DNA of 64,000 nt from Bacillota bacterium. Lineage in GTDB: Bacteria; Bacillota; Negativicutes; Sporomusales; CTSoil-080. Below the pieces are notes generated by a model. That model was not told the origin of the DNA. It ran no database searches and worked only from the letters and a program-made list of their open reading frames with translations. Positions 125 to 1,971 of the stretch are shown here, piece after piece. The stretch spans positions 1 through 64,000 of the forward strand of contig JAGGAC010000007.1 in NCBI GenBank assembly GCA_017889635.1, given 5' to 3'. Within the stretch, counting starts at the first letter, position 1. Each line of letters begins with the position of its first letter. Position numbers and translations under genes: made by a program.

Positions 125-469
125 TTAGTAGCCGATAGGGGCGCAGTTCTCGACTGCGTTAGCAGGATAGCAATTCGGATTAGGACAGAATGGTTTGCAA
201 CGGGGACGACAATACTGAGGATTACAGTTATACGGTTGGCAGGAAGGATTGCATGATGGCGGTAGATAATAGGGGTGGCAGATGGGCGGGCAATTTGGAT
301 AACAGGGCGGCACTTTGGGATTGCAAACTGGTCTGCACCTGGGAGTGCAAGGGGTGGAGATCGGCGGACAGCTTATTTGGCGTTCGTCGTTGACCGTTTG
401 TTCCTTTTTCGCTTCTGTTACTTCAGGGTGTTCCCACTTAGGTCGTTTGGATTTTCCTTTGTTGGACAT
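125..469 (-). CDS. Cys/Pro-rich small protein, candidate RiPP precursor
   Basis: 114 aa ORF with 15 Cys in C-x-P-x-C-like spacing after a charged Cys-free N-terminus (MSNKGKSKRPKWEHPEVTEAKKEQ); overlaps the 3' end of the radical SAM gene by about 52 bp on the same strand. Confidence 0.6.
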   Translation of the reverse strand: MSNKGKSKRPKWEHPEVTEAKKEQTVNDERQISCPPISTPCTPRCRPVCNPKVPPCYPNCPPICHPYYLPPSCNPSCQPYNCNPQYCRPRCKPFCPNPNCYPANAVENCAPIGY

Positions 470-1710
470 CGATGATCATCCTTCCAAATTCCTGTATAGG
501 GATTATATAGGCAATCAACTGAGCAGGCTAACCAGCGTTTTGTTGGATCAGAGCCTTGTGCTAGTGGGCGGCAGTCGGTGCAAGCATAACGGTATTCGCA
601 ATCCTTGCATTTTTCGATCTGATCTTTGGTGGTTTGCCAGCAAGCTTTAAGTTTTTGTCCGTTAAGTACGTCCACGAGCGGAGATTTTAATATGTTTCCG
701 CAAACCTGATTACGAGCAAATATGCAGGGAATGACATCACCTGCCGCGGTAATCGCAATTTTGCCGTTAAGACAGTTGTGTTGGCGCTGGGCGTTGGAAA
801 AACTAAAAGGATCGGTATAAAAGGGAGGCTTGATAGGCTGTTTGGCATACTGTGTAGGGAGCAGGGCGTTGTCATCGCCGCGTCCTGTTGGTCTAACGAC
901 ATCAGGAGGTGTGACTTCGACACCTAGACGTTCGCATAAGTTCATTATGTTTTGGACTTCGAGTTCATTGGTCTTCATTATTATAGAAGCAATACGCAGT
1001 TGAATACCTGCGGCCAACAGTTTATCAATTGCAGCCATCGTTTTAACGTAGCTGCCTTTATTAAGAGTAACTGCATCGTGGGTGGCGGCGTTATCGGCAT
1101 AAATGGTGGTAGCGATGTTAACATTAAAGCGCTTAAAAAAAGCAACATCAGCATCGTCGATAAGGGTGGAATTGGTAAAAATTTCAATGAAGCTGAACTT
1201 TTCTTGATGGGCTTTTTCGATTAATTCACGCCAATGGGGATAGAGAAGCGGTTCACCACCGATTAATTGAATAGCGGTGGCGCCAGCGGAATGAGCCTCG
1301 GTGATTAAAGAGAGCCATCTTTCATGTGGTATAAGGTCAAGGCTGCACGACGGTCCACTGGTGGCATAACAGTGGAGGCATTGATTGTTACAACTGGAAG
1401 TAAGTTCGAGCCAGACGAATTCCAGTTGTAACGGTTCGATTGGTTGGTCCTTTTCTTTGGGCTCAGATGGTTCATTTAGAAAGAATGAGCCCAACCCCAA
1501 CTCTGTTAGATGGTGCAAAAAATCTAAGAATGGCTTATCTTGAGGTGATTCAAGGACTAGAAAATTTTCTAGTTGCTGGCTATGGCAGGCTGTGAGAAGA
1601 CCTAATCCCCCCTGATTAATGGAATGTACTTTGCCGGTTTGCAGGTTATAGATAGCACCGCGCTTCGCGCCCTCAACTAACTTGCAGTAATTATGCAGCC
1701 TGTAATACAC
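418..1710 (-). CDS. Radical SAM/SPASM domain peptide maturase-like protein
   Basis: CNNQCLHCYA (CxxxCxxC) radical SAM motif, GGEPLLYP, C-terminal Cys-rich SPASM-like region (CKDCEYRYACTDC...), N-terminal RRE/PqqD-like segment. GTG start at 1710 preferred over the track start 1770 because AAAAGGAGGG lies just upstream. Confidence 0.85.
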   Translation of the reverse strand: MYYRLHNYCKLVEGAKRGAIYNLQTGKVHSINQGGLGLLTACHSQQLENFLVLESPQDKPFLDFLHHLTELGLGSFFLNEPSEPKEKDQPIEPLQLEFVWLELTSSCNNQCLHCYATSGPSCSLDLIPHERWLSLITEAHSAGATAIQLIGGEPLLYPHWRELIEKAHQEKFSFIEIFTNSTLIDDADVAFFKRFNVNIATTIYADNAATHDAVTLNKGSYVKTMAAIDKLLAAGIQLRIASIIMKTNELEVQNIMNLCERLGVEVTPPDVVRPTGRGDDNALLPTQYAKQPIKPPFYTDPFSFSNAQRQHNCLNGKIAITAAGDVIPCIFARNQVCGNILKSPLVDVLNGQKLKACWQTTKDQIEKCKDCEYRYACTDCRPLAQGSDPTKRWLACSVDCLYNPYTGIWKDDHRCPTKENPNDLSGNTLK

Positions 1711-1896
1711 TGTCAGCCCTCCTTTTGGCATTTTGCTACATAATATGCTAAACTTATTATGAACGTGCACTTATAGATAAGTGATCTGGGGGTAGTTTAT
1801 TTGATGACTATTTTATTAAAATGACTATTAATTATGTTGACAGGTTTGGATAAGTGATATATAATAAACAACGTTGTATTTAACATTTTGATTTAT

Positions 1897-1971
1897 GCGG
1901 AAGTAGCTCAGTGGTAGAGCATCGCCTTGCCAAGGCGAGGGTCGCGAGTTCGAATCTCGTCTTCCGCTCCA
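1897..1971 (+). tRNA. tRNA-Gly(GCC), CCA encoded
   Basis: GCGGAAG acceptor stem pairs with CTTCCGC, TTGCCAA anticodon loop, GTTCGAATC T-loop, TCCA end. Confidence 0.95.

Follow-up and report, generated by a model that had tools for sequence, protein, structure and literature searches.

The stretch of DNA analyzed here (the window) takes up the first 64 kb of contig C36 (G000:C36) from a 4.5-Mb genome; base 1 of the window is also base 1 of the contig. Two overlapping genes on the reverse strand lie at this edge, and the contig sequence downstream of the second of them ends there. The first gene (positions 418 to 1710) encodes a 430-residue radical SAM/SPASM protein, here called the maturase, with orthologs across the class. 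Its likely start is the GTG at 1710 (protein MYYRLHNY...), read from the sequence together with an upstream ribosome-binding site, AGGAGGG (1717 to 1723, reverse strand); the frame itself is open from a GTG at 1770. On the same strand are an exact copy of the 12-mer GCATATTATGTA (1737 to 1748), which we read as a −10 element, and an AC dinucleotide (1765 to 1766) that the spacing seen in aligned promoters marks as the −35 element, 17 nt before the CATA. The second ORF (125 to 469), which has an ATG start, overlaps the 3′ end of the maturase gene by 52 nt and encodes a 114-residue candidate precursor with 15 Cys residues, 14 of them in C-x-P units; it matches the precursor profile at 55 bits. 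The first 33 residues (371 to 469, reverse strand) form a charged leader that has no Cys and contains RPKWEHPEV, a motif kept in adjacent and dispersed precursors, and Cys-motif counts place the C-x-P core at 128 to 370 on the same strand. The 15-Cys ORF, its overlap with the radical SAM gene, and its Cys-free charged N terminus had all been reported in a first-pass annotation of this DNA, and each proved real. The divergent upstream genes are a tRNA-Gly (gcc) gene (1897 to 1971, forward strand), located between the maturase promoter and a trigger-factor-like gene, and clpP/clpX-like and Lon-type genes, the protein genes being named from sequence reading rather than from a domain scan. Some relatives also have a tRNA sequence upstream of their maturase gene.

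The maturase exceeded the Pfam cutoffs for both Radical_SAM (PF04055) and SPASM (PF13186). Its CX3CX2C cluster motif (residues 107, 111, and 114; positions 1369 to 1392, reverse strand) and the seven Cys residues of its SPASM region (residues 313 to 400; positions 511 to 774, reverse strand) are invariant in an alignment of 28 relatives. These features identify it, by sequence, as a radical SAM/SPASM peptide maturase, as the first-pass annotation had said. Beyond these two generic models, neither ORF exceeded a family cutoff in NCBIfam or Pfam. Among the matches listed, the maturase reached no NCBIfam named-family cutoff (best, 104.9 of 500 bits), and neither SCIFF nor PapB nor any other named rSAM-peptide model was over its cutoff; its scores were likewise below the cutoffs of the sactipeptide models AlbA (76 of 850 bits), SkfB (68 of 300 bits), and StsB (78 of 625 bits). 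No curated family claims either protein. The earlier remark that the peptide is unlike SCIFF agrees with its C-x-P motif. Among solved structures, those closest to the enzyme belong to the thioether maturases SkfB and CteB and to SuiB; SkfB gave the best profile match. The N-terminal domain (residues 1 to 95; positions 1426 to 1710, reverse strand) consists of strands and helices in an AF2 model of only moderate quality, and it had no sequence match among solved RREs. An RRE/PqqD-like identity, which had been suggested for this region, is plausible from the model, and by analogy with SkfB, CteB, and SuiB the domain may bind the leader as an RRE.

Of the 28 genomes of the order, 26 have a maturase ortholog (50 to 74% identity), as do 50 of the 382 genomes of the class Negativicutes; two more genomes of the class have only a side-clade enzyme of 34 to 37% identity. 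Most orthologs adjoin a small ORF whose product has a leader of the (K/R)PKWExPEMxxWDDD type followed by a C-x-P core; this ORF usually overlaps the maturase gene or sits just downstream and is found upstream in Anaerospora and G019. Since this leader and core recur beside orthologs across the class, the pairing is not a matter of chance, and the arrangement (a precursor with a conserved leader and a variable core, adjoining a modifying enzyme) is that of a RiPP locus. Absence or frameshifting of the small ORF next to orthologs had been named as grounds for doubting the pair, and it does occur, but only in a minority: the adjacent precursor has a frameshift within the repeats in G098 (L083), a stop in the leader in G001 (L019), and an end right after the leader in G012 (L082), and about eight ortholog genomes have no adjacent precursor. 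Dispersed precursors are intact in G098, G001, and G012, and all of the genomes with a broken or missing adjacent copy except G109 have C-x-P precursors elsewhere. Outlying homologs from a Clostridiales metagenome-assembled genome (L016), from G274 (L078), and from another class (G486, L101) adjoin C-x-P peptides with quite different leaders, as does the 37%-identical side clade (L063 to L065), some of all these leaders being of the double-glycine type. Next to a more distant homolog (G579, L102, 190 bits), there was no C-x-P peptide in the stretch read. Because the leaders differ while C-x-P stays, the C-x-P rule belongs to the enzyme clade and not to one leader type. The small ORF therefore behaves in sequence comparisons as the substrate proposed in the first-pass annotation, being kept beside orthologs with a near-invariant motif that recurs beside outlying homologs.

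Two further arrangements were observed. In G025, G022, and G024 (L075, L076, and L077), a side-clade maturase stands behind an array of as many as eight short ORFs, whose products have double-glycine leaders (VEKLTDESLDKVSGG) and cores of C-x-P units, and in two genomes such arrays lie approximately 15 to 22 kb from the main locus; these arrays are likely a separate, exported-RiPP version. G104 has a further full-length copy of the maturase (L081/L280; G104:C6:148000-157500), its second, which also adjoins a C-x-P precursor; next to it is encoded a 906-residue glycosyltransferase-methyltransferase-glycosyltransferase protein, hinting that this copy marks a spore surface locus. The flanks scanned around the maturase loci showed neither an exporter nor a leader protease, in keeping with what had been noted for the window.

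C-x-P units account for 528 of the 533 Cys residues in 36 adjacent precursors. The corresponding figure for 107 precursors, adjacent and dispersed, is 1239 of 1264, with Pro at Cys+2 in 98% of cases and at the other offsets tested in 2 to 36%; the dispersed set was prefiltered on C-x-P content, whereas no C-x-P-ratio filter was applied to the 36 adjacent ORFs or to the 14 found through the promoter, and each of these two sets gave 99% C-x-P. Cys and Pro are the sole near-invariant core residues and the middle residue varies widely, with extreme cores such as (CWPRQQ)n in Pelosinus, (CFPRQT)n in G102, and (CFPRP)n in G004; the genome of the window itself encodes a (CFPRQ)13 precursor (L169). 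The C-x-P precursors exceeded no family cutoff in Pfam or NCBIfam; one repeat precursor matched the elgicin lantibiotic model (37.9 bits; cutoff, 40), which we set aside as a repeat artifact, the best stretch being one residue. An aromatic residue (F, Y, or W) occupies the middle position in 661 of the 1239 units and Arg often follows the Pro, a pattern resembling the aromatic-x-x motif, so that the products could in principle be three-residue, triceptide-like cyclophanes on aromatic-Pro-Arg, with the Cys residues serving for disulfides or metal. However, in 13 adjacent precursors, including that of the window, only 0 to 21% of the units have an aromatic middle residue while C-x-P stays constant, and the aromatic residue in each unit that marks triceptides is thus missing. 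We rejected cyclophane-only chemistry as a general rule on these grounds and consider cyclophanes in place of Cys bonds unlikely.

The GCATATTATGTA element is found upstream of the maturase gene in most orthologs, and seven genomes hold 35 copies of the 12-mer compared with 1 for a reversed control. Many copies precede further C-x-P genes, on other contigs or far off on the chromosome. These promoter-found genes encode the leader W[ED]xPE[IM]x[DE]W, a motif common to adjacent and dispersed precursors, and a precursor profile search returned 10 loci in the genome of the window and 1 to 10 matches in others, some of which have no precursor beside the maturase gene. When 101 upstream regions were aligned, AC stood 17 nt before CATATTATGTA at 70 of 99 aligned sites and 16 or 17 nt before it at 87 of 101; other AC spacings held 1 to 13 sites, except for 16 nt, with 17. 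Upstream regions with at most one mismatch to the 12-mer numbered 50 of 71 for the dispersed genes and 32 of 46 for the maturase, versus 3 of 2340 shuffles, the first of these figures being affected by the fact that part of the dispersed set was found via the promoter itself. The published mother-cell −10 element is CATATTAT-like and common to SigE and SigK, and the −35 element is AC for SigK and ATA for SigE (PMC3789822). An AC at −35, a CATA-type −10, and a separation of about 17 nt match the SigK form; SigE and SigG readings were set aside because the −35 reads AC, not ATA. Of the 10 full-pattern sites in the genome of the window, 8 precede the maturase gene or a C-x-P gene. Another, again the full AC-N17-CATATTATGTA promoter, precedes a DUF2642 gene (L270, G000:C68:51345), which is a candidate spore protein gene. 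DUF2935 and ferritin-like genes also have this promoter in other genomes. Related proteins of 205 to 274 residues with the same promoter are encoded at L178 (G000:C13:35113), L111, L112, and L121; L121 scores as a DUF2935 protein (199 bits), and L178 falls below every family cutoff.

Among the 382 Negativicutes genomes, the maturase is present in 50, spoIVA in 52, and both in 47. Precursors are found in 50 genomes after removal of one artifact (G303), where a pentapeptide-repeat gene had been read out of frame, across internal stops; 48 of the 50 also have the maturase. Two maturase-positive genomes, G109 and G315, are exceptions; a weak match in G315 (E, 0.0013) reads as a C-x-P ORF with MPEIFDW, and in G109 a precursor was not found. 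Precursors occur with no maturase ortholog in G024 and G105, both incomplete genomes. Across the 382 genomes, the enzyme and its precursors thus track spoIVA and spore formers, a class-level co-occurrence that is uncorrected for, and confounded by, common descent; the Fisher values (~1e-50) ignore phylogeny and are not to be read as probabilities. In G003, G122, and G123, the enzyme and the precursors are both absent while spoIVA is kept, and G004, a family-mate of G003, has both. This pattern suggests joint loss, beyond an ancestry shared with sporulation. The first-pass framing, in which only one substrate was seen, is not supported: the locus is not a self-contained cluster for a secreted peptide. 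This genome encodes about 10 dispersed substrates, the adjacent ORF among them, and promoter type and distribution point to late sporulation.

The sequences themselves show that enzyme and precursor are paired, that the precursors have a leader in common and a nearly invariant motif, that the genes share a promoter, and that they are distributed together with spoIVA. Building on this, we think it probable that one late mother-cell maturase modifies the C-x-P units of many dispersed spore coat or surface proteins. A SigK-type mother-cell promoter would switch on the maturase and its adjacent precursor late in sporulation, and the same promoter type would switch on further C-x-P repeat proteins genome-wide, from 10 precursor loci here. 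The maturase, probably via its N-terminal domain, would recognize the leader W[ED]xPE[IM]x[DE]W at the N terminus of each precursor, and radical chemistry would then modify the Cys of each C-x-P unit. We infer that the radical step targets this unit because Cys and Pro alone are near-invariant, the residue between them being variable and often nonaromatic. The likeliest bond would be a thioether from the Cys sulfur to a carbon of the unit, in either the Pro at +2 or the residue between. We know of no precedent for Pro as the acceptor. There is precedent in spacing, in the Cys-to-i+2 thioether reported in CteA, Cys32-Thr34 (PMC8326336). The products are probably not exported and would become crosslinked parts of the spore coat or surface that do not depend on oxygen; the late mother-cell promoter type and the failure to see any exporter or leader protease in the flanks scanned suggest that they remain inside the mother cell and are deposited on the spore. 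By our own reasoning, thioethers would be attractive for a strict anaerobe, disulfides being harder to form. A more specific version, which we put forward tentatively as a possibility, has Cys-to-Pro (i to i+2) rSAM crosslinks, up to about 26 per protein, giving an anaerobe a covalently hardened spore surface independent of disulfides, while a single enzyme would serve all substrates of a dispersed SigK regulon.

Secreted RiPPs are often the products where a SPASM maturase adjoins a Cys-rich precursor (PMC8326336), and the 37%-identical side clade with double-glycine leaders would agree with an antimicrobial or signaling ranthipeptide or sactipeptide, made by maturation of the adjacent ORF, cleavage of the leader, and export. 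The main clade differs: scanning around its loci showed neither an exporter nor a leader protease, a genome can hold as many as 10 dispersed precursors, presence in spore formers is near-universal and vertical, and the promoter is of the SigK type. Because no exporter was seen at the loci scanned and the substrates are many and dispersed, we reject a self-contained bacteriocin cluster for this clade, and we regard a conventional secreted product as improbable. It is just as doubtful that the C-x-P proteins are ordinary disulfide-linked coat proteins, with the enzyme acting elsewhere and the genes neighboring and coregulated only through sporulation, for although Cys-rich coat proteins not needing a radical SAM enzyme are known from Bacillus and the promoter also serves DUF2935, DUF2642, and ferritin-like genes, the gene pair is overlapping or adjacent, enzyme and precursors are jointly absent in G003, G122, and G123, and distant enzyme homologs adjoin C-x-P peptides with unrelated leaders.

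The proposed spore-linked system shares features with several known ones. SCIFF (CteA/CteB) and freyrasin (PapA/PapB) likewise have a radical SAM/SPASM maturase adjoining a Cys-rich precursor; SCIFF is also near-universal in a clade of anaerobes, and freyrasin also has repeated Cys units. Their motifs are six Cys in 45 residues and CxxxD, respectively, whereas the motif here is C-x-P, with many dispersed substrates and a SigK-type promoter. SkfB and AlbA have the same domain order, a radical SAM domain and a Cys-rich C-terminal domain, but here there is no single short toxin-like core and no exporter was seen. Triceptides (XyeA/XyeB) are built of short repeated units, and some units here are aromatic-Pro-Arg; here, however, it is Cys and Pro, not an aromatic residue, that are required. 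ProcM of the prochlorosins is one maturase with many dispersed, leader-tagged substrates, apparently like the maturase described here, but it belongs to another enzyme class and the regulon here is spore linked. We know of no radical SAM partner for CotY/ExsY-type coat proteins. CotY and ExsY are Cys-rich proteins of the Bacillus spore coat or exosporium (PMC9562818). Like the C-x-P proteins, they and their relatives are late mother-cell, Cys-rich products with a proposed structural role.

We found no report of C-x-P RiPPs or of radical SAM maturation of spore coat proteins in the open-access literature, subscription journals being largely outside the scope of the search. The enzyme class is known; the substrate rule, the dispersed multisubstrate organization, and the link to sporulation appear to be new. 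Most work on radical SAM peptide maturation has concerned the making of secreted peptides, and the SCIFF peptides widespread in clostridia have, to our knowledge, no settled function yet. The sequence evidence gathered here ties a radical SAM maturase to spore formation and to many dispersed, near-invariant C-x-P substrates. This lets radical SAM modification or crosslinking of spore proteins be tested directly in the cultivable and nonpathogenic genera Sporomusa and Pelosinus, and the maturase would provide a repeat-processing enzyme for peptide engineering. For the Sporomusa-related spore formers, these observations point to a previously unreported way in which a spore surface may be built or hardened without oxygen.
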